DNA from: a virus
Strand: one strand, 5' to 3'
Length of the DNA: 20,048 nucleotides
Virus record (IMG/VR): IMGVR_UViG_3300000553_000421
Location: 1 to 20,048 of that record
Below are positions 3,341 to 19,036 of this stretch, piece after piece. Each line of letters starts with the position of its first letter. The first letter of the stretch is position 1. The position numbers and the translations under genes are program-made. The notes under the pieces are model-generated. The model had not been told where the DNA came from, did not search any database, and worked only from the letters and a program-made list of their open reading frames with translations.

Positions 3341-3369
3341 TTGACTTTCGTTATAGCATATGCTATAAT
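3341..3369 (+). promoter_or_regulatory. sigma70-like promoter driving a leaderless primase mRNA
   Basis: TTGACT (3341-3346), a 17-bp spacer, then TATAAT (3364-3369) preceded by the extended -10 dinucleotide TG (3361-3362). Six bases separate the -10 box from the ATG at 3376, so the expected start site (seven bases past the box) is the A of the start codon. The promoter begins immediately after the stop of the upstream gene. Confidence 0.82.
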
Positions 3370-3375
3370 TACTGA

Positions 3376-4446
3376 ATGATTATCATAGATGTCTTGAAAG
3401 ACGCAATTCTTGCCAACATAGGTCCACTAAAGCAGGCTCCTAAAGGATGGAATAAGCGTCATTGTCCACTTTGCCATACGCAAGGTCACGGCAAAGACAC
3501 ACGCAATCGTTTCGGCATACAATTTAATCCGCAATCTATCGCAATGAATTGCTTTAACTGTGGATTCTCTGCTGGTTATACTGAAGGCCAGCCATTATCT
3601 AAATCCCTTAAGTTCTTCCTAGGTCATCTTCATATTGATGAAAAGTTTATAGAACAGTTAGAATTTGAAATATTCAAACAAAAGAATCAAATTCAATCTA
3701 TCAGAGAAGGTGAAGAAAAAGAGGATAAGGAAACTAAGTTTAAGAACTTATTCCTAAAATGGCATCCTATGGAGTTGCCAGATGATTCACTACCTATCAC
3801 TGAATGGTTAGAGAATGGATTAGACGATCCGGATTTCCTAAAAGTGGTTAATTATGCGTTAGATCGGAAGTTGTTTAATTTAGGCGAATTTTACTGGTCG
3901 CCAATGACATCGCATAACTTGAATCAGAGACTAATTATACCCTATCAGCATAAGGGTAAAATTGTAGGATTTACAGCTAGACTATGCTACAACGTGCCTG
4001 ACAAATCTATCCCAAAATACTTCCAACAATGTCCACCTGACTTTGTCTATAACCTTGACCATCAACAGGGCTGGTCACGTAAATATGCAATAGTTACAGA
4101 AGGTGTGCTTGATGCGTGGGTAGTGGATGGGATAAGTATATTAGGCGAGATAGGTCAATCCAAGGTAGATATAGTTAATAGATTACAGAAAGAAATCATC
4201 GTATGTCCCGATAGAGATAAGAAGGGACGAGATCTAGTTGACATAGCAATAGAAAATGAATGGTCTGTTGCTTTCCCAAAATGGGAAGTAAATATCAAAG
4301 ATGCTGCCGCAGCAGCAGAAAAATATGGACGATTATTAACAACACATTCTATAATTTCCTCAGCAGTAGCTGGCGAACTTAACATACGAAATACTTGGAA
4401 AATACAGCAAAACGAAAGAAATCGTAACATCAAAGGTTCCTACTAA
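3376..4446 (+). CDS. 61: DNA primase, T4 gp61-like
   Basis: A 356-residue primase that would lay down RNA primers for lagging-strand synthesis together with the helicase encoded just downstream. The N-terminal zinc ribbon is C30-PL-C33 and C59-FN-C62, framing a DnaG-like DNA-recognition domain. The catalytic TOPRIM motifs are clear: TEGVLDAW with E242, and CPDRDKKG with D279 and D281. The length is close to that of T4 gp61 (342 residues as I recall it). The upstream promoter places the transcription start at this ATG, no Shine-Dalgarno sequence exists, and the next methionine (residue 57) lies beyond the first zinc ligands, so the annotated start is well supported. The gene order primase then helicase is interrupted by a GIY-YIG endonuclease gene. 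Confidence 0.88.
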
Positions 4447-4463: not shown

Positions 4464-5354
4464 ATGATATATTATATTTACGCATACCTAAGAAATAAAG
4501 ATAGCACCTCCGGGAAGATCGGGACACCCTACTATATAGGTAAAGGTAGTGGTAACCGAGCATATGACGAACACGATTATACAACAACCCCGACAAATCG
4601 TGATTATATTGTTATTATGGAAGAACATTTATCTGAATTAGGCGCATTTGCTTTAGAGAGATTTTATATAAGATGGTATGGCAGAAAGGATCTAAACACT
4701 GGAATTTTAAATAATAGAACAGACGGGGGAGAGGGTGCTGCTGGAAGATTAGTAAATCAAGAGACAAGACAGAAATTATCAATAGCACAGACTACGTATT
4801 ATAATTCTTTATCCCACGAAGAACAGATTGAGCGAAATTTAAAAACAAAAATACCAACAACATCAGGTTTAAGATGGGATGAAGATACTAAGAAAAAGAT
4901 GAGTAACTCTCAATTAGGGAAAGTAGCCATTAATAACGGAGAGAAATATATAAAGGTGGATAAGCATTTATTGAACGATTATTTATTAGCAGGATGGCTT
5001 CTGGGTAAATTGAGAACAGGAAATATCTATATAAACCAAAACGGTGATATCAAGAAGATATCACCAGATGATTTATCGATATATGTCGCTGATGGATGGT
5101 TCCCGGGCCGCGGCCCTATGCCTCAAGAAAGAAAGGATAAGATAGGAATTTCTAACGCTGGCAAGAAGAAAAAGCAAAAGACCGAAGAAGAAAAAGATAG
5201 AATATCATCCAATATTTCGGCAAGATTAAAGAACGAGTGGGCAACAGGAAAACGTAAGGTCACTGGTATGACCGGAAAGCATCAATCAGAAGAGACAAAG
5301 AATAAGATATCTTTATCGGTATCTAAGAAACGCAAGGATAAAAAAGATGAGTAA
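4464..5354 (+). CDS. GIY-YIG homing endonuclease with NUMOD3 repeats
   Basis: A 296-residue freestanding homing endonuclease placed between primase and helicase. The GIY-YIG fold is shown by [10 protein letters not shown] with TPYYIGKG (the YIG at 24-26), the helix [16 protein letters not shown] with the likely metal-binding E65, and NNRTDGGEG near 83-91. At least four NUMOD3-type DNA-binding repeats follow, for example [12 protein letters not shown] (98-109), [31 protein letters not shown] and [16 protein letters not shown] near the C-terminus. A different module, with paired LLAGWLLGK and VADGWFPGR segments, sits between them. The end is very lysine-rich. The coding region overlaps the helicase start by eight bases and therefore also supplies the helicase Shine-Dalgarno site. 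It has its own late-type promoter. Confidence 0.9.
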
Positions 5355-7103: not shown

Positions 7104-8468
7104 ATGCGTTTTGATGATATACAACCGTTAGATGAAGCCCCGAAAAAGCCAGCTGGCGGCGCAGGCGCATTTGGGCAGATGGGTAATACCTTAAGTGGTG
7201 CAAACAAATCGAAATCCAGTACAGGTGGCACAATTACTAGAACACCTACGGGATTGGTACATACTGCGAAACCCGGTGCAGATAAGCCAGCACCTACGCC
7301 TAAACCAGGGGCACCTACTCCGGCACCTACACCCGGATCAGCTAATACAGGTGAATTAACAAAAGCCTGGATTCAATATTTAAAGAATAATCAAATTGTA
7401 GCATTACAATCAGATCCTAAAACTGGTCAACTCGCATATAAGAAAAAAGTAACTACTGATAATCTATCACAGTTTTTGCGAAGCGAAACAGACTACGATA
7501 AAGAAGTAATTAATAGCACAATTCAGTCTGTAATGGCCAAAGGTGCAGCACCCGAACAGGTTAAACAACACACAGGTGGCAAAGTCGCTGGACAATTAAG
7601 TCAATCACCGGGTGCGATTAAAAAGCGCGATGCTCGAACAGCACAGAAACAACCTCAACCTCCACAGCCAGGCGAACCAGTCAATGAAGCAATGATTGAT
7701 AAACCGATAGAGATAAGTGAAAAGGATGTAGAGGCAGTATTTTCGGCTCTATTATCGCAGGCTCCGTCGGGCGCATCTGCAGAAGAACCTGCCGCGGAAC
7801 CTAGTACCGAACCAGCCCCAGAGGATGCAGAGAAGAAAGGGGCAGATCTTGAGAAGTTAAAGAATCTTATTGGTACAGGAATGACATCTGCTCAGCGTAA
7901 AGAACTATGGACATCATTAAAAGGAACTGCCTTATCTGAAAGTAGGGTAGATAGGAGAGAAGCAATACAAATTCTTAAGTATGCTGCTAAGATAAAGCAT
8001 ACAATTAAATTAGAAGATCTTCAGGCCTCCTGGTCAAAAGCAGGGTATCCTACTGATTTAGATGAAATAGCTAAGATATTAAATAAAGCCGGATTTGGTA
8101 GAACAGATATAAAAGATATTTTTGATGAAGTAATTGGAGATGATGGAAGCGAGGATTATGAAGATGAAGAATCCGGTCCTAGCCCGACGATTATAAAGAT
8201 TATTGATTATATAAACAAAAATGGTATCAAAGACGACATTCTTGCCTATATGGAAGAAGAATTTGGTGATGAATTAAACGCACCAGAGCCCGAACAGAAA
8301 GGTTGGTTTGATAAGGTAAAGGATTTTGGAAAAAGAATGTTTACTAGAGAAGCAACAGTTAAAGAGATAGAACAAATCTTCACAAAAATTCTATTAAAGG
8401 AACGTACAGAGCTTCCTATGCGTATTAAAGAACAAGATAGACAAAATCTTGGGCGCCAGAGAAAATAA
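7104..8468 (+). CDS. large modular protein with Pro/Ala-rich linkers, probably virion-associated
   Basis: A 454-residue protein built from folded segments joined by low-complexity linkers. Residues 1-50 are glycine- and serine-rich, and about 56-82 is a proline/alanine/threonine linker (repeats of the PTPxPGAP type). About 84-150 is a helical domain starting ELTKAWIQYLKNN. A second proline-rich linker follows near 187-200 and an acidic Glu/Pro/Ala linker near 228-247. Residues 250-350 look helical, and an acidic segment precedes the C-terminal helix EATVKEIEQIFTKILLKER. No catalytic motif is visible. The same linker style appears in the protein at 13624-14316, suggesting related roles in the capsid, the scaffold or the injected contents. 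The start ATG is eight bases after the preceding stop and has only a weak ribosome site, so coupling is likely. Function is unrecognised. Confidence 0.7.
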   Translation: MRFDDIQPLDEAPKKPAGGAGAFGQMGNTLSGANKSKSSTGGTITRTPTGLVHTAKPGADKPAPTPKPGAPTPAPTPGSANTGELTKAWIQYLKNNQIVALQSDPKTGQLAYKKKVTTDNLSQFLRSETDYDKEVINSTIQSVMAKGAAPEQVKQHTGGKVAGQLSQSPGAIKKRDARTAQKQPQPPQPGEPVNEAMIDKPIEISEKDVEAVFSALLSQAPSGASAEEPAAEPSTEPAPEDAEKKGADLEKLKNLIGTGMTSAQRKELWTSLKGTALSESRVDRREAIQILKYAAKIKHTIKLEDLQASWSKAGYPTDLDEIAKILNKAGFGRTDIKDIFDEVIGDDGSEDYEDEESGPSPTIIKIIDYINKNGIKDDILAYMEEEFGDELNAPEPEQKGWFDKVKDFGKRMFTREATVKEIEQIFTKILLKERTELPMRIKEQDRQNLGRQRK

Positions 8469-8496
8469 TTGACATTTATAATTATATTGTTATAAT
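8469..8496 (+). promoter_or_regulatory. sigma70-like promoter of the glycosyltransferase/radical SAM unit, leaderless
   Basis: Consensus TTGACA (8469-8474), 16-bp spacer, TATAAT (8491-8496) with TG at 8488-8489 (extended -10). Six bases separate the box from the ATG at 8503, so the expected start site is the first base of the start codon. The promoter starts directly after the stop of the upstream gene. Confidence 0.8.
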
Positions 8497-8502
8497 TATA
8501 TT

Positions 8503-8799
8503 ATGGACAATCAGCAATTAAAAATTGATATTCTAAAGAATTTCGATTTTGCATTTAAAATTAATTGGGAAAGTGAACACCATAGGCGTATTCATACGTA
8601 TCTGGTGTCTTTAACTATGTATTTCGGTGTCAAGATGAATGGACATATCGCCGAAACTGGCTCGTTTCTTGCCTATAGATTCAACGAACGAGATAATTTG
8701 GGATCATCAATAGACATGTTTAGAAATCTGTTTAAAAACGAAGGTGCTGACACATTTACCGAAGAATATTGCCATGGATGTTATATTTTTACATTCTAA
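8503..8799 (+). CDS. hypothetical protein, first gene of the glycosyltransferase unit
   Basis: A 98-residue protein with no recognised motif, containing FDFAFKINWESEHHRRIHTYL, a hydrophobic/aromatic stretch (LVSLTMYFGVKM), and a C-terminal CHGCYIFTF. The single CxxC pair (about residues 91-94) could bind metal but has no partner pair. The ATG coincides with the transcription start predicted from the promoter at 8469-8496, and there is no Shine-Dalgarno sequence. Its 3' end overlaps the next gene (ATG at 8774) by 26 bases. Position suggests that it serves the sugar-transfer or radical SAM enzymes downstream, but no function can be read from the sequence. Confidence 0.65.
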   Translation: MDNQQLKIDILKNFDFAFKINWESEHHRRIHTYLVSLTMYFGVKMNGHIAETGSFLAYRFNERDNLGSSIDMFRNLFKNEGADTFTEEYCHGCYIFTF

Positions 8800-9406
8800 T
8801 GAACTAAATTGGCAAGAAAATTTCATCCGAGCCCAACAGGTATTAGATAGAGATATAATATTGATTGACGGTAGTAATGCCTCATCAATAAAAAATGCAT
8901 ATGAACTTGTATTCGCTTCGACATCTTCTGATCACTTCATGATGATTGAAGCAGATAATTACATTCTAGAAGATTGTGTTAAATATGTCAATATTCATAA
9001 ACCAATAAAATTCTGGTCTATAAATAAATATGGAATTACTTATGAACATGGCGGAGTTAAAATTCTAAATACAGATGCTTGTCGTAGACAATTGATTAAG
9101 AATGCAAATATATACGAAAATTTTGAAATAAGTGCGAATCTAATGCTCGAATCATCTCCTGTCGTATTATCTGAACATAGATTTGACTGGAGTCCAAAAA
9201 ATGAATGGACCACGATAGCGAAAGAACTAATTAAATTGCACTATTGGAATCATAAAGATTACATAAACAATTGGATCATTCACGATCGCCCACGTGAAAT
9301 CTATAACGATGTATTATCTATAATTCAAGATATAAGTTTCACGGAATTATTTGAGACACTATTACCTTCGCTGGGAATAATTTATGAAACTAGATTTAAA
9401 GTCTGA
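8774..9406 (+). CDS. possible glycosyltransferase-like protein
   Basis: A 210-residue protein if started at the ATG at 8774, which gives the natural beginning MDVIFLHSNELNWQENF; the upstream in-frame ATG at 8744 would lengthen the overlap with the previous gene and adds ten unlikely residues. The fold reads like the start of a GT-A Rossmann domain: MDVIFLHS strand, IILIDGSN, an Asn/Ala-rich helix (NAYELVFASTSSDHF), then MMIEADN (E59-A-D61), which sits where the DxD-type metal/sugar-nucleotide motif of glycosyltransferases lies. KYGITYEHGGVKILNTD follows, similar in texture to acceptor-loop segments of such enzymes. The protein is short for a complete enzyme and the DxD is degenerate, so the call is tentative. 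It overlaps both neighbours (26 and 23 bases), implying coupled translation with the GT2-like protein. Confidence 0.48.
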   Translation: MDVIFLHSNELNWQENFIRAQQVLDRDIILIDGSNASSIKNAYELVFASTSSDHFMMIEADNYILEDCVKYVNIHKPIKFWSINKYGITYEHGGVKILNTDACRRQLIKNANIYENFEISANLMLESSPVVLSEHRFDWSPKNEWTTIAKELIKLHYWNHKDYINNWIIHDRPREIYNDVLSIIQDISFTELFETLLPSLGIIYETRFKV

Positions 9407-10409
9407 TCTAACTATTTTAAATATATTCAAGGATGATTTCGAATATATAGATTGTTTTGTTGAGACACATTGTAAACTGGCAAGATCAGTTATAATGCTT
9501 AATACAGGAAATCAACAATCATATGAGTACACTAAATCTCTTGAATCAGCGTATCCAAATTTGACTGTGCTTTTCAAAGAGTATTCTGATGTTAATTTTT
9601 CTAATTTTAGGAATGATTGTTTATTATTGTTCCCGAATGATACTGAATACTATTGTTGGGTAGATACGGATGAATTATTAATAGCAGAAAATAATGAAAT
9701 TGATGTTGATGCAGACGTGTCGAGTATTAACAGAATAGATGGATCGAAAAGATTTAGTACATCTCTTAATCGGATGTTCAGGCGAAATATAGCAGGAACA
9801 TGGGTTAAACGAATACACGAACACTTTTCTATTTCTCAGGGATGTTCGTATGCTGTATGCACAGATTTAACAATACAGCATCTTTCATCGGAAGCACATA
9901 GACCTTTGAGCAAGAAACAAATGTATTTTGATATATTAGAATCAGAATTAAATAAATCGATAGAGACTAATAATCGAAATGGTATCATAGATGCTCTCCA
10001 GCATTTAATATTAATGTCATCACACGATTTTAAAGATCCTGAATTGTGTATTTCGTATTTTTATAAATTTAAAGAATTAATATTTAATATGGATCCTACT
10101 ACTGCTGAAATATCAAAAGTTCAAAAATTGAACATATTACTACATTCTCTTATATCTCTTTCTAGATTAGGTATTGTACCGGAAGATGCCCTCATTGAAC
10201 ATATCTTAGAAATTGATAAATCTAAGTCAACTGTATTTCAATTACTACGAGGATTATTATTTAATCCAGCAAATAAATACACAGTAAAAGATATTTACGA
10301 AGTAGTCTACATTAACTTAGATGATAATACAGATACAGAATTTAATAATTTGGATTTTATTAATCCAGTTGAAATATCCCGATTTGAAACTAAACTATAC
10401 GCCAACTAA
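9384..10409 (+). CDS. GT2-like glycosyltransferase
   Basis: A 341-residue protein with the hallmarks of family 2-type GT-A glycosyltransferases of the kind that act on polysaccharide or protein acceptors. The N-terminal strand TILNIFKDDFEYIDCFVETH resembles the common 'knee-deep in E-x-x-xl-x-e-fi' start. NFSNFRNDCL (71-80) corresponds to the arginine-asparagine helix. CWVDTDELL (91-99) is the DxD-like metal site followed by glutamate. WVKRIHEHF (140-148) matches the W-x-g-x-x-H-E motif. The last 170 residues are helical and may bind a partner. The ATG is preceded by GGGA (9373-9376) seven bases upstream and overlaps the previous gene by 23 bases. It probably adds sugars to phage DNA, virion proteins or host envelope; the sequence does not say which. 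It is noticeably AT-rich compared with the structural genes downstream. Confidence 0.74.
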   Translation: MKLDLKSDLTILNIFKDDFEYIDCFVETHCKLARSVIMLNTGNQQSYEYTKSLESAYPNLTVLFKEYSDVNFSNFRNDCLLLFPNDTEYYCWVDTDELLIAENNEIDVDADVSSINRIDGSKRFSTSLNRMFRRNIAGTWVKRIHEHFSISQGCSYAVCTDLTIQHLSSEAHRPLSKKQMYFDILESELNKSIETNNRNGIIDALQHLILMSSHDFKDPELCISYFYKFKELIFNMDPTTAEISKVQKLNILLHSLISLSRLGIVPEDALIEHILEIDKSKSTVFQLLRGLLFNPANKYTVKDIYEVVYINLDDNTDTEFNNLDFINPVEISRFETKLYAN

Positions 10410-10417
10410 GAAATAAT

Positions 10418-11782
10418 ATGTTAAACTCAGACGTTTTTAAGAATATAAAAGACTTCAAGGAAGAATTAAATAAGATATCTCCTACATTTTGTACAGCCAA
10501 ATGGCTTCAGAGTACAATTTTATTATATAATGGGGAGACTCATTCATGCCATCACGTTCAGAGAAATAAGATTTCAGTTGAGCAATTAAAGGACAATCCT
10601 AAAGCAATTCATAATTCACCTATTAAGATGTTGGCAAGAAGAGACTTAATGGAAGGTAAACAGTCGCCCGAATGTGATTATTGTTGGAAAATAGAAAATC
10701 TTGGTACAGATCGTGTGTCAGATAGAATCTATAAATCTTCTGCTCCGTGGGCAGCACCTTATCTGCAGAAAGTTGTCGAAAGCGGCGACGGAGCAGATAT
10801 TGATCCAACATATCTCGAGGTGGCATTTGATTCAACATGCAATTTTGCTTGTATGTATTGTACCCCTGAAGTATCATCTAAATGGATGGAAGATGCTGAA
10901 ATAAATGGCCCATATAGATTGCATACAATTTCCCTTCATGATACAGAATATATAAGAAATGTCGACAAATATCCAATTCGTCATAATGAATATAATCCCT
11001 ATATTGACGCATTTTGGAAATGGTGGCCAGATCTATACCCCAATCTAAGAACATTCAGGATTACAGGCGGCGAACCATTATTGTCGAAGCATACATGGAC
11101 TGTTATGGAATGGATAAAGAACAATCCCAATCCCGATATAGAATTCGCAATAAACACGAATCTAGGTGTTCCACGAAAACTGATTGAAAAATTTGTAGAA
11201 GAGATAAGGGCAATTGAGGGAAAGGTTAGGAGAGTTAAGATTTTCACGAGCCTAGAAGCTACTGGACAGCATGCCGAATATATACGTCATGGATTAAATT
11301 ATACTGAATTCTTAGATAATCTTAACTATATCATGACAGAACTCCCGGGTATTAGGGTAATATTCATGACAACAGTTAATGCACTGAGTATATTTACATT
11401 TAAGGATTTCTTGGCTGAAATTATCAATCTACAAATGAAATACTCGAGAGATTCGGTAGGATTGAGCATTAATTATTTACGTTGGCCGATGTGTATGGAT
11501 ATACGAATATTAGATAAGAAGCTAATGCAGCCATACCTTGATGAGATTGTTGAATATGTAGAGAATCATCGGATTAAGATTCCGGGATCAAAAAATGTTA
11601 AGTTTTATCTAGAAGAAATAGATCAAATAATGAGACTACGAGAATACGCAATGCAACCGTGTGATAATAGGCAAGATCTCATTAAAGACTTCATCTTATA
11701 CTTTAATCAATACGATATCAGACGAAAGCTGGATTTACACAAAACTTTTCCAGAAGTTGCGAATATGTTAGTCGACGAATAA
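10418..11782 (+). CDS. radical SAM protein with extra N-terminal cysteine cluster (twitch/SPASM-like)
   Basis: A 454-residue radical S-adenosylmethionine enzyme. The [4Fe-4S] motif is C141-NFA-C145-MY-C148 and the SAM-binding motif is ITGGEPLL (GGEP at 217-220). An N-terminal module with FC25TAKWLQSTILLYNGETH, C44 and C86-DY-C89 could hold an auxiliary iron-sulphur cluster; it resembles the FCxxPW...pCC segment of marine phage and bacterial 'twitch domain' radical SAM proteins, though here the second cysteine pair is Cys-His. Further cysteines lie in RWPMCMD and MQPCDN. Such enzymes typically make a radical on a peptide or small-molecule substrate; no precursor peptide is obvious next to it. 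It follows the two sugar-transfer proteins with an eight-base gap and is the last gene of the unit. Substrate is unknown; a coat, tail or glycan modification is an inference. Confidence 0.85.
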   Translation: MLNSDVFKNIKDFKEELNKISPTFCTAKWLQSTILLYNGETHSCHHVQRNKISVEQLKDNPKAIHNSPIKMLARRDLMEGKQSPECDYCWKIENLGTDRVSDRIYKSSAPWAAPYLQKVVESGDGADIDPTYLEVAFDSTCNFACMYCTPEVSSKWMEDAEINGPYRLHTISLHDTEYIRNVDKYPIRHNEYNPYIDAFWKWWPDLYPNLRTFRITGGEPLLSKHTWTVMEWIKNNPNPDIEFAINTNLGVPRKLIEKFVEEIRAIEGKVRRVKIFTSLEATGQHAEYIRHGLNYTEFLDNLNYIMTELPGIRVIFMTTVNALSIFTFKDFLAEIINLQMKYSRDSVGLSINYLRWPMCMDIRILDKKLMQPYLDEIVEYVENHRIKIPGSKNVKFYLEEIDQIMRLREYAMQPCDNRQDLIKDFILYFNQYDIRRKLDLHKTFPEVANMLVDE

Positions 11783-11813
11783 ATCTTCATATCTGTAATA
11801 TTTTCCTTCAGAT

Positions 11814-11821
11814 GATAAATA
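11814..11821 (+). promoter_or_regulatory. late-type promoter (GATAAATA)
   Basis: GATAAATA 45 bases before the ATG at 11867. The predicted start site is about 11827, so the leader would begin just before the hairpin at 11831-11845. Confidence 0.65.
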
Positions 11822-11830
11822 AGTTTATGA

Positions 11831-11845
11831 ATAGGATTATCCTAT
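11831..11845 (+). other. 5'-leader hairpin of the gene at 11867
   Basis: ATAGGAT and ATCCTAT arms with one central base (effectively six pairs and a three-base loop) begin four bases after the predicted late transcription start. A hairpin at the very 5' end could protect the message from decay. The short AT-rich stem makes this tentative. Confidence 0.5.
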
Positions 11846-11866
11846 CAAAAATAAGGAGTTATTAAA

Positions 11867-12460
11867 ATGACACAAAAAATTAATGGCGCAGCATACTCTG
11901 GTATCTGGGTAGAAAAACAAGTAGCTTTTATCAAGCTTACATTTAACCACAGTCTTGTAGCTATTCCAGCAGCTCAGATGTTCTTAACTGGTACAAGCAC
12001 AGCAACAACAACAACTTCAGCAGGCGACACATCGTTCGGCGTAGTTGAGTCCGCAGTTGTCCAGGCATTGAAGCAATTAGAATTGAAAGCAACAGTATTA
12101 GGTATTTCTATGTTGAGTGCAGCAGGAACAGTTGTTGACGTAATGGTTGGATGTTCGGAAGGTTACTTCTCGGACAACGTTGGTTCTATCTCTACTGGTA
12201 ATGCAGTAGTTGGTGCTAAGGCAATTATTACAACAGCAGGTGGTAATACAGCACTTGGTCAACTAGTTGACGTTAGTGGTTCGTACTTGACATTTGCTAT
12301 GGATTTTGCAACGTTCGATGGTACAATGCCAGTTGCTACAGTAGCTAACGGCGATCTAGAAACAGGCGTAGGTTCTACACCAGGTTCTACAGCTACACCA
12401 AACGGTGCCCCAATTGGCTCTGCAAACAGCTATCAGCCAGTCACATTTATTACAACTTAA
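11867..12460 (+). CDS. probable abundant virion protein (Ser/Thr/Gly/Ala-rich)
   Basis: A 197-residue protein with the best expression signals in the window: a late-type promoter, a leader hairpin, the strong Shine-Dalgarno AAGGAG (11853-11858) eight bases before the ATG, and a strong terminator 19 bases after the stop, so it is probably monocistronic and highly expressed. It is low in cysteine (one) and rich in small residues, with TGTSTATTTTSAG near 42-54 and a C-terminal tail of the GSTPGSTATPNG kind. It alternates hydrophobic residues as beta structure does. No signal peptide or enzyme motif is present. A decoration, head-fibre or tail-tube-like role fits, but I do not recognise a specific family. 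Neighbours on the downstream side are also structural in texture. Confidence 0.65.
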   Translation: MTQKINGAAYSGIWVEKQVAFIKLTFNHSLVAIPAAQMFLTGTSTATTTTSAGDTSFGVVESAVVQALKQLELKATVLGISMLSAAGTVVDVMVGCSEGYFSDNVGSISTGNAVVGAKAIITTAGGNTALGQLVDVSGSYLTFAMDFATFDGTMPVATVANGDLETGVGSTPGSTATPNGAPIGSANSYQPVTFITT

Positions 12461-16639: not shown

Positions 16640-17800
16640 ATGTCTTGTGAAGGATTAACGGGGTTCCCTACAGCTACCCAGATGGAAGGTCTTGCTACAA
16701 ATCTTCCTGTGGTATGGGAAGAAATTTGTGCAATTCAACAAGCGATATTAGCAGCATCTAGTCAATGTCAGCCCGGTGGCGGGCAAATGTGTACTACAAT
16801 AAATGGTACAACCCCGATGACATTCGTCAACGGTGTATCATCAGTACATGTCGATGTTGTTGGTTCAGGATATTATCTAGATTATCCAGGTGTTGTTTTT
16901 ATTCCGCCGGTTGGTTCTGTTCCTAGCATAACTGCTACGGCTACGGTTACAACAAATGGTGGAAATATTCTATCTATTAATGTGATCAATGGTGGATTAG
17001 GTTATCAACCGGTCCCTGCAACATTAGCAGTAAGTTCAGTAGGTGGTACACTAGCTGTATTAGAACCATTAGTTAATGCAAGTGGTCAGATAATGGGTAT
17101 AAACATTGTTAACGGTGGATCAGGTTATACGACTGCCGATTCTATTATTGCAACTCGCGCAGTATTACCTAATCCCGGATATGTTAATGCTATATTTGCC
17201 ATTACTTCCGTAAGTATTACAGGACAGATTATCGGTATTGCTATATTAAATCCTGGTTCGGGATATCAGAATAGCATAACAACATTACAAATTGTTTCTT
17301 CATTAAATCCTTTATTACCGTATCCAATTGGTGGCAGCTTTATAGGAACAGTTTTAACTGATTCTTTTGGTGTGATTAATAGCAATGTGTTGATAAACAA
17401 TACAGGTGCTGGATATGCAGATATATTACCTTATCTTGTTATTACCGATCCCGGCACAGGTGCAACAACATCATTAACACTTAGTGGAACTTCTATAGCA
17501 TCCATTGCTGTAACTTCTCCCGGTACACAATATACTCAGTCAGCAACCGGCGCAGTTCTAAATCCTCCAACATATATAGCACCGGTAGTACCGGCTGTAG
17601 TTACTGTAAATGTGGCGAATAATACGTTCGGAACTAACCCTGCACTATATTGGCAGGTATGGGCTGGCACAACAACAGATAAGGCTATTTCTACACAATT
17701 AAATGCTGTCTTATCTTATTTTGCTGGATTAGGCTACACAATAGTAATTCAAACAAACCCTGCAACAGGATCTACTATTCAGTGGAGAGTTTGTTGGTAA
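16640..17800 (+). CDS. tail-fibre-like structural protein with repeated GxGY modules
   Basis: A 386-residue, beta-rich protein. The N-terminus is MSCEGLTGFPTATQMEGLA followed by an Ile/Gln/Ala helix and four cysteines in the first 51 residues. From about 70 to 300 there are six repeats of roughly 40-50 residues, each with a strand, a small turn and the signature G-x-G-Y or close variants: VVGSGYY (73-79), INGGLGY (116-122), VNGGSGY (157-163), NPGSGY (204-209), NNTGAGY (253-259) and SPGTQY (293-298). The final 60 residues (YWQVWAGTTTDKAI, then LSYFAGLGYTIVIQTNP and QWRVCW) look like a trimerisation or attachment domain that I recall from tail proteins of marine T4-like phages. The same GxGY module appears once in the protein at 19078. 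AGGA precedes the ATG by nine bases. A receptor-binding or fibre-accessory function is inferred. Confidence 0.75.
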   Translation: MSCEGLTGFPTATQMEGLATNLPVVWEEICAIQQAILAASSQCQPGGGQMCTTINGTTPMTFVNGVSSVHVDVVGSGYYLDYPGVVFIPPVGSVPSITATATVTTNGGNILSINVINGGLGYQPVPATLAVSSVGGTLAVLEPLVNASGQIMGINIVNGGSGYTTADSIIATRAVLPNPGYVNAIFAITSVSITGQIIGIAILNPGSGYQNSITTLQIVSSLNPLLPYPIGGSFIGTVLTDSFGVINSNVLINNTGAGYADILPYLVITDPGTGATTSLTLSGTSIASIAVTSPGTQYTQSATGAVLNPPTYIAPVVPAVVTVNVANNTFGTNPALYWQVWAGTTTDKAISTQLNAVLSYFAGLGYTIVIQTNPATGSTIQWRVCW

Positions 17801-17804
17801 TACA

Positions 17805-17834
17805 TTGACTTCGTGATACTCTTTGTGTTACAAT
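17805..17834 (+). promoter_or_regulatory. sigma70-like promoter driving a leaderless nuclease mRNA
   Basis: TTGACT (17805-17810), 18-bp spacer, TACAAT (17829-17834) with TG at 17826-17827 (extended -10). Six bases separate the box from ATG 17841, so transcription should start at the A of the start codon. The promoter begins five bases after the tail gene stop. Confidence 0.75.
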
Positions 17835-17840
17835 TCATCT

Positions 17841-18506
17841 ATGCTAATACAGAAACTCTACGATTACAAGCCTCTCGAACGAATCTCTACCGAAAATGGT
17901 AGACGATATATAGTTGGAGAAGGCAGACCACTCCCCTCCGTCACAACAATTCTCGAAAAGACAGCCGATAAAACCCATTTATACGAGTGGAGAAAACGAC
18001 TCGGCCCGGTTGAAGCGACTCGCATAACGGTAGAAGCCAGCGGATTAGGCACCGGTATGCATAATAATCTCGAAAATTACATATTAGACAAGCCTATGAA
18101 GGGCAATTTCATGCAACGTGCCCTTGCAGATGTGATTATCAAACACGGTCTATGTAATGTAAGTGAAGTATGGGGTACAGAAGTGGCTCTATATTCTAAA
18201 GAATTATACGCAGGTACAACAGACCTTGTTGGATTACATCAGGGAATACCTTCTATTATGGATTTTAAGAATAGTTTGAAGGAAAAGAAGCGTGAGTGGA
18301 TCGAAGATTACTTCATGCAACTATGTGCATATGCTTTATCTCATAACGAAATGTTTGGCACAAACATAAACCGAGGTGTTGTCATGATTGCAACTCGAGA
18401 GGCTAAATATCAAGAGTTTGTAATTGAAGGCGACGAGTTTATTCATTATGAAACTATGTGGGCAAACAAGGTGTGTGAATATTATAATAGATTCGGTAAA
18501 GAATAA
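17841..18506 (+). CDS. PD-(D/E)XK family exonuclease (Cas4/RecB-like)
   Basis: A 221-residue nuclease if started at ATG 17841, which is where the promoter predicts transcription to begin; a TTG at 17823 would lie inside the promoter and is rejected. Motifs in order: G-T-G-M-H74-N-N-L-E78, WGTEVALYS with E114, the strand ending AGTTDLVG with D128, IMDFKNS with D141 and K143, and [12 protein letters not shown] with Q160 and Y164. This is the order of the RecB/Cas4-type nuclease core (H-E-D-DxK-QxxxY). No cysteine cluster for an iron-sulphur cluster is present, so it is not a full Cas4. It probably processes DNA ends during replication or recombination. It is an early-type gene embedded in a late structural region, and the GIY-YIG endonuclease starts at its stop codon. 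Confidence 0.82.
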
Positions 18507-19036
18507 TGTTTTATGTTTATGCTTATTTACGGAAAGACGGAACACCTTACTATATAGGGAAAGGTAAAGGTAGGAGAGCATATAATAAGATGCACAGTAT
18601 TTCTTTACCAGAAGATAAATCGAGAATAATCTTTCTTGAAACTAATCTTACCGAGCTAGGTGCATTCGCACTTGAACGAAGAATGATTAGATGGTACGGA
18701 AGAAAAGATCTAGGAACTGGTATTCTTCGAAATAGAACAGATGGTGGCGAAGGTGGAACCGGGTCGATAAGGACTCCGGAACAGAAAGAAAGAAGTTCCG
18801 AAGCAAGAAAAGGTAGGCCGGGTAAACCGTGTTTAGACGCAACAAAAGAAAAGATACGTCTAATACACAAAGGAAGATCCGGTATTATTCCTTCAGAAGA
18901 GACAAGAATAAAACTTCGACGTAAGAAGAAACCACAAGAAATTATAAAATGTCCACATTGTAATAAACAGGGGAGTTCGGGTAATATGAAAAAATATCAT
19001 TTTGATAATTGTAAATTTATTAGTAGTTTTCTCTAG
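18506..19036 (+). CDS. second GIY-YIG homing endonuclease with C-terminal zinc finger
   Basis: A 176-residue enzyme starting at the TAATG overlap with the exonuclease stop. The fold is marked by [17 protein letters not shown] (YIG 16-18), [15 protein letters not shown] with E57, and RNRTDGGEG (76-84), nearly the same motif set as the enzyme at 4464-5354. NUMOD3-type repeats follow: [14 protein letters not shown] (90-103), [14 protein letters not shown] (110-123) and [14 protein letters not shown] (129-142). It ends with C149-PH-C152 and H165-F-D-N-C169, the module that also ends the HNH enzyme at 1830-2471. It is shorter than the first GIY-YIG enzyme and has no obvious promoter of its own, so it is probably co-expressed with the exonuclease. 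Confidence 0.88.

Follow-up and report, generated by a model that had tools for sequence, protein, structure and literature searches.

Twitch-domain radical S-adenosylmethionine (SAM) enzymes include proteins that act on sugars, such as BtrN, AprD4 and their relatives. Among the phages, pelagimyophages have been described with cassettes of radical SAM genes and with glycosyltransferases in their host recognition cluster (PMC7029224), and 12 radical SAM genes occur in an environmental genome of T4-like type (PMC5332604). Jumbo phages display sporadic glycosyltransferase clusters for the modification of capsular polysaccharide or O-antigen, proposed to diversify the outer glycan (PMC7824862). 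The radical SAM arrays of marine phages have so far been reported without a function. The present analysis deals with a four-gene cassette (g1 to g4, with its promoter at positions 8469 to 11782) of IMG/VR virus record IMGVR_UViG_3300000553_000421, the complete 20,048-base entry being referred to hereafter as the window. The cassette associates two sugar-transfer-like proteins with a twitch radical SAM enzyme, and is read here, with a probability of about 0.45, as an inserted and self-contained unit that builds and tailors a glycan, acts early and most likely alters the surface glycan of the infected cell. It consists of the following features:

8469..8496, + strand: cassette promoter TTGACA-16-TATAAT, host sigma-70-type, with TG before the -10 element, 12/12
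8503..8799, + strand: g1, 98-residue protein, cassette-specific
8774..9406, + strand: g2, 210-residue GT-A-fold sugar-transfer-like protein, IEADN 58-62, YEHGGVK 90-96
9384..10409, + strand: g3, 341-residue probable GT2-like glycosyltransferase, DTDE 94-97, helical C-terminal half
10418..11782, + strand: g4, 454-residue twitch-domain radical SAM enzyme, NF033640, 323.3 bits against a cut-off of 170

The four-gene unit is real. Its genes follow each other in the order g1-g4 (98, 210, 341 and 454 residues) behind a single promoter, with overlaps of 26 nucleotides (nt) between g1 and g2 and of 23 nt between g2 and g3, and a spacing of 8 nt between g3 and g4. Their co-occurrence elsewhere, which a sequence-only reading of this DNA had left to be checked, is found in L085 (L-numbers designate the contigs or loci of relatives used for comparison), where all four frames are intact at 80% identity for g1, 71% for g2, 67% for g3 and 69% for g4; the first part of the unit is also present in L086 and L097. 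The cassette is under constraint as protein, with ratios of nonsynonymous to synonymous substitution (dN/dS) against L085 of 0.06 for g1, 0.12 for g3 and 0.09 for g4, at synonymous sites close to saturation.

By sequence, g4 is a full-length member of the curated twitch radical SAM subfamily NF033640 (N_Twi_rSAM): residues 21-450 of the protein cover positions 1-397 of the 398-position model. With this subfamily g4 shares the N-terminal cysteine cluster (C25/C44/C86/C89), the CxxxCxxC motif (C141NFACMYC148, i.e., C141-x3-C145-x2-C148) and the GGEP motif at 217; it differs in occurring as a single copy in the window, whereas most phage relatives and Bdellovibrionota possess several to many. Among the named phages, g4 yields weak Vibrio phage matches only, and searching solved structures by sequence gave no match for g2, g3 or g4.

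A structural model of g2, derived from an alignment of 33 sequences, is confidently predicted to adopt a GT-A fold, with a predicted local distance difference test (pLDDT) score of 86. It matches B4GALNT1 (Z 12.0), a Leptospira glycosyltransferase (Z 11.3) and SpsA (Z 11.2) over 134-137 residues. The motif conserved throughout the g2 family, (V/I)(D/E)xD followed by a YxxGGxK loop, would fit a nucleotide-sugar enzyme, and most of the 33 aligned relatives carry DxD at the position concerned. The profile libraries gave no convincing match for g2 itself, and one relative matches PF13704 at E 0.037, short of the cut-off; g2 is described here as a GT-A-like protein rather than as a member of a filed family. 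The neighbouring g3 is probably a GT2-like glycosyltransferase, since g3 and two homologues all match one phage glycosyltransferase family, phrog_13126 (E 7.5e-5, 1.9e-6 and 4e-7); a Pfam glycosyltransferase match is absent. Neither g2 nor g3 finds a match among the named phages, and distant scans with g3 return the same lineage only. The assignments put forward for these three proteins in the sequence-only reading (a GT-A-like protein, a GT2-like glycosyltransferase and a radical SAM protein with CxxxCxxC, GGEP and extra N-terminal cysteines) are supported, for g3 as a probable glycosyltransferase. As for g1, it has no match below E 0.05 in Pfam, PHROGs, NCBIfam or PADLOC, and no relatives were found outside the cassette, distant scans again returning the same lineage only.

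The association of g2 with a twitch radical SAM enzyme extends well beyond the window. Scanning with g4 gathered 80 phage loci, representing 40 non-redundant clusters; tandem twitch radical SAM genes (at least two) occur in 33 of these clusters, and 26 have a member of the g2 family at most two genes away from a twitch radical SAM gene. Across 830 kb of sequence from 77 helicase-centred loci, no g2-family gene was found. In a tree of 175 radical SAM proteins, the clade of g4 includes 18 of the 19 that directly follow a g2-family gene and a single one of the 33 others from g2-carrying loci; retrieval of the phage loci with g4 favours g4-like copies, but a position right after a g2-family gene was not built into it. 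A scan of bacterial genomes with g2-family proteins alone gave hits in Bdellovibrionota, Neomarinimicrobiota and others with a nearby twitch radical SAM gene, as have most non-actinobacterial hits, and in Photorhabdus and actinobacteria without one nearby. The Photorhabdus relative of g2 is flanked by one GT4 and two GT2 genes (Pfam), and other neighbours elsewhere include a carbamoyltransferase, Pfam glycosyltransferases and, by eye, SGNH-like hydrolases.

The recurrence of this pair in many phages and in predatory bacteria suggests that they make or modify a glycan in a common manner, and points to two proteins worth testing together. A bolder and doubtful proposal is that the GT-A protein of g2 type and the twitch radical SAM enzyme directly behind it form an undescribed functional pair of phages and Bdellovibrionota, which would produce a so far unknown kind of radically modified sugar linkage; the window would represent the minimal, single-radical-SAM form under early control. 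A literature search in which subscription journals lay largely outside coverage found no report of the pairing or of its presence in Bdellovibrionota, nor of the combination of radical SAM, jumbo phage and glycosyltransferase.

Within this family, the genomes behind L101, L102, L109, L161 and L171, mostly titled Bdellovibrionota, contain 11-33 twitch radical SAM matches each, counting all matches including those under the cut-off, and many are clustered. An operon recurs in L023, L025, L033, L067 and others, comprising a GTGSGxSGYGQ-type protein, a 116-residue protein, GT8-like genes, a 190-210-residue protein with the motif YxxFDPxTGxVxGIYP, a g2-family gene and radical SAM genes; a version of it occurs on a Bdellovibrionales contig (L101 2279-5779).

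Expression of the cassette would depend on host RNA polymerase. The -35 element begins at 8469, the -10 element ends at 8496, and the two together match 12 of 12 positions, 0.38 sites of this kind being expected in the window at up to one mismatch. The ATG of g1 (8503) is separated from the -10 by 6 nt and lacks a Shine-Dalgarno sequence; an mRNA starting from such a promoter is probably leaderless, the class being defined by a -10 located 5-8 nt ahead of the start codon. In L085, L086 and L097 the -10 is retained as TATACT, with a gap of 7 nt. For three genes of the window, a -35/-10 pair stops precisely 6 nt short of the start codon, where each control distance yields 0-1; they are listed here together with the copies of TGATAAATA:

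3341-3376: leaderless-type promoter of the primase, start 3376, 11/12, 6-nt gap
Start 8503: leaderless-type promoter of g1, 12/12, 6-nt gap
About 17794-17841: leaderless-type promoter of the exonuclease (phrog_298), start 17841, 10/12, 6-nt gap
1815, 4451, 6794, 11813, 12525, 14774, + strand: copies of TGATAAATA

The promoter of the primase is present in most relatives with upstream sequence inspected, and the cultured phage Paride (L253 2921-2960) displays TTGACA-17-TATAAT and, 6 nt further, a GTG opening a primase-like frame. This GTG lies upstream of the annotated start (L253 3058), which looks about 100 nt too late. The window contains a second promoter class besides the leaderless host-type one: TGATAAATA occurs six times, on the + strand only and ahead of genes, a number reached in 0 of 100 shuffles, and the genes behind it are mostly late-type, some with a Shine-Dalgarno sequence as well. 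It probably serves as a late promoter motif in this group of phages. Late promoters of the T4 type, TATAAATA, were rejected as candidates, their two matches in the window being below chance. The cassette promoter would accordingly fall, as to its class, with the early-like promoters of primase and exonuclease. The single leaderless sigma70-like promoter of early type and the four tightly packed genes of the sequence-only reading both hold, and the occurrence of this class in the cultured Paride offers a quick test of the timing.

The cassette is an insertion, as shown by the empty sites of sister phages. The surroundings of the insertion comprise the following features:

7104..8468, + strand: p454, left flank, 454-residue protein
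11813..12460, + strand: right flank, with the TGATAAATA late-type motif (11813-11821), a leader hairpin, a Shine-Dalgarno sequence and p197
11867-12460, + strand: p197, 197-residue gene

The left junction falls immediately past the stop codon of p454. L177, with a helicase 95% identical to that of the window, has a 71-residue gene and then p197 behind p454; the cassette is absent from it, as it is from L176, L181, L182, L189, L190 and L201; in sister phages p197 comes directly after p454 or after an intervening gene of 71-73 residues. In L085 the cassette occupies a different nearby point, between a 76-residue gene and the gene of a protein of at least 235 residues cut by the contig end, and the counterparts of these two flanking genes directly adjoin in L183 and L179. 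Taken together, the empty sites and the differing position in L085 identify the p454-p197 stretch as a variable site. Elsewhere this site harbours a 456-residue gene (L085 5939-7309) or a 298-residue gene (L183 5745-6641), which by eye may encode a ligase and a nucleotidyltransferase. In the stretch that separates TGATAAATA from the Shine-Dalgarno sequence of p197 (11822-11866), a small stem reads TAGGATTATCCTA in the window and TGGGATGATCCCA in L177, both of its sides changing together across relatives.

The sequence-only reading had described the unit as visibly richer in A+T, as if acquired, and as lying between late gene blocks. The higher A+T content stands, the G+C content (GC) being 0.324 in the unit and 0.386 in the surroundings (permutation p about 0.0006), and so does acquisition, on account of the empty sites. 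Composition fails as the evidence for it: the difference is confined to codon positions 1 and 2, GC at the third position (GC3) is 0.266 against 0.279 (p 0.27), and the codon-usage distance from the rest is marginal (p 0.048). Since GC3 matches the flanks, the A+T richness reflects amino-acid content and not a recent foreign origin. The genes downstream are indeed late-type, whereas primase, helicase and p454 lie upstream.

The record is probably a piece of a larger genome. The helicase of the window has as nearest named relatives PA5oct, Paride (Arenbergviridae, Wroclawvirus) and other 287-kb Pseudomonas phages, at 53-56% identity, and the window is therefore probably part of a jumbo myophage-like genome. 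By motif, homing endonuclease-like genes of the HNH or GIY-YIG type occur at 1830-2471, 4464-5354 and 18506-19036; L177 and L176 have an identical copy of the gene at 4464, which was undetected in several other relatives.

In the proposed scheme, host RNA polymerase would use the promoter of the replication-gene class to express g1-g4 early, probably from a leaderless mRNA. The GT-A-fold g2 and the GT2-like g3 would transfer sugars, g4 might perform radical chemistry of the BtrN/AprD4 type (e.g., oxidation, deoxygenation or epimerisation) on a sugar or on the growing glycan, and g1 could be an accessory or acceptor protein. The product would most likely change the surface glycan of the infected cell, for example so as to block competing phages, a target suggested by early expression and by the phage precedents. 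A glycan cassette is favoured by the membership of g4 in a curated subfamily, the fold of g2, the family matches of g3, the g2/radical SAM pairing, the tree, the glycan-related neighbours, the dN/dS values and the promoter class. Several points weigh on the other side. The g2 model also matches the cytidylyltransferase IspD at Z 11.1, a nearly equal score, so that the reaction does not follow from the GT-A fold by itself; g2 carries ExD (IEADN, 58-62) in place of DxD and has no glycosyltransferase match in Pfam or NCBIfam. The model obtained for g3 is of low quality (pLDDT 58) and unfit for structure search, and profile comparison gave no match between g2 and g3 or between g3 and GT2_4. The reaction of g4 is not readable from its sequence, and early expression is deduced from sequence.

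Alternatively, the same enzymes could decorate a protein of the capsid or tail with a glycan that the radical SAM enzyme tailors, aiding adsorption or stability. This looks rather unlikely, even though about 32 phage loci have the g2-family and radical SAM genes behind conserved genes for the GTGSGxSGYGQ-type and 116-residue proteins, and late-type genes come directly after the cassette in the window: the cassette promoter belongs to the early class and not to the TGATAAATA late class, no GTGSG-type protein occurs among the window proteins inspected, and in the Bdellovibrionales contig the module stands beside aminoacyl-tRNA synthetase-like genes (by eye).

Radical SAM enzymes that modify peptides typically have twitch and SPASM domains, and g1 might be a substrate crosslinked or epimerised by g4 and glycosylated by g2 and g3. 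The cassette-specific g1, 76-81% conserved, has C90 and C93 and ends in TFTEEYCHGCYIFTF; its conservation, however, spans the full length instead of following a leader-core design, and other GT-A/radical SAM clusters lack g1 and have the different 190-210-residue protein in its place, which leaves this explanation quite improbable. Still less credit is given to DNA base hypermodification, in which the glycosyltransferases would place a sugar on a modified base, to be tailored by the radical SAM enzyme, as a protection against restriction. Glucosylated DNA is known from phages, thymidine hypermodification is known to involve radical SAM steps, and early expression would fit, but the 20-kb window (a fragment) shows no evident gene for base modification, such as a base hydroxymethylase, and the bacterial relatives of g2 are located among cell glycan genes; the context favours a surface or virion glycan over DNA as the target. 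Finally, a viperin-like antiviral or nucleotide-modifying system, suggested by a weak PADLOC pVip match (E 7.6e-6, 23.6 bits), is extremely improbable, and g4 as a viperin is rejected on 17.1 bits against a cut-off of 180 for the NCBIfam viperin model, compared with 323 bits for NF033640.

Returning to the glycan cassette acting early on the cell surface, its likeness to the systems of pelagimyophages and of the T4-like genome (PMC7029224, PMC5332604) resides in a phage-borne radical SAM enzyme, in the glycosyltransferases of the former, and in a cassette-like gain and loss. It differs from them by the PA5oct/Paride-like helicase, by the association of one radical SAM with two sugar-transfer-like genes, and by a promoter of its own of the early class. 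Unlike the host recognition cluster of pelagimyophages, it lies outside any recognised tail-fibre region, the tested neighbours giving no tail-fibre match except a weak one to phrog_8745 (E 0.66). In the jumbo phage clusters (PMC7824862) radical SAM is unmentioned, and the glycosyltransferase families differ as far as can be told. With BtrN and AprD4, g4 has in common its twitch type and, here, a place next to sugar-transfer enzymes, but its twitch domain is N-terminal and it has no sequence match to solved structures. Phage clusters of radical SAM enzymes and glycosyltransferases are already known; to these the cassette adds a well-defined, minimal and testable unit, whose one radical SAM enzyme, two sugar-transfer-like genes, small protein and own promoter are few enough to be expressed and assayed.

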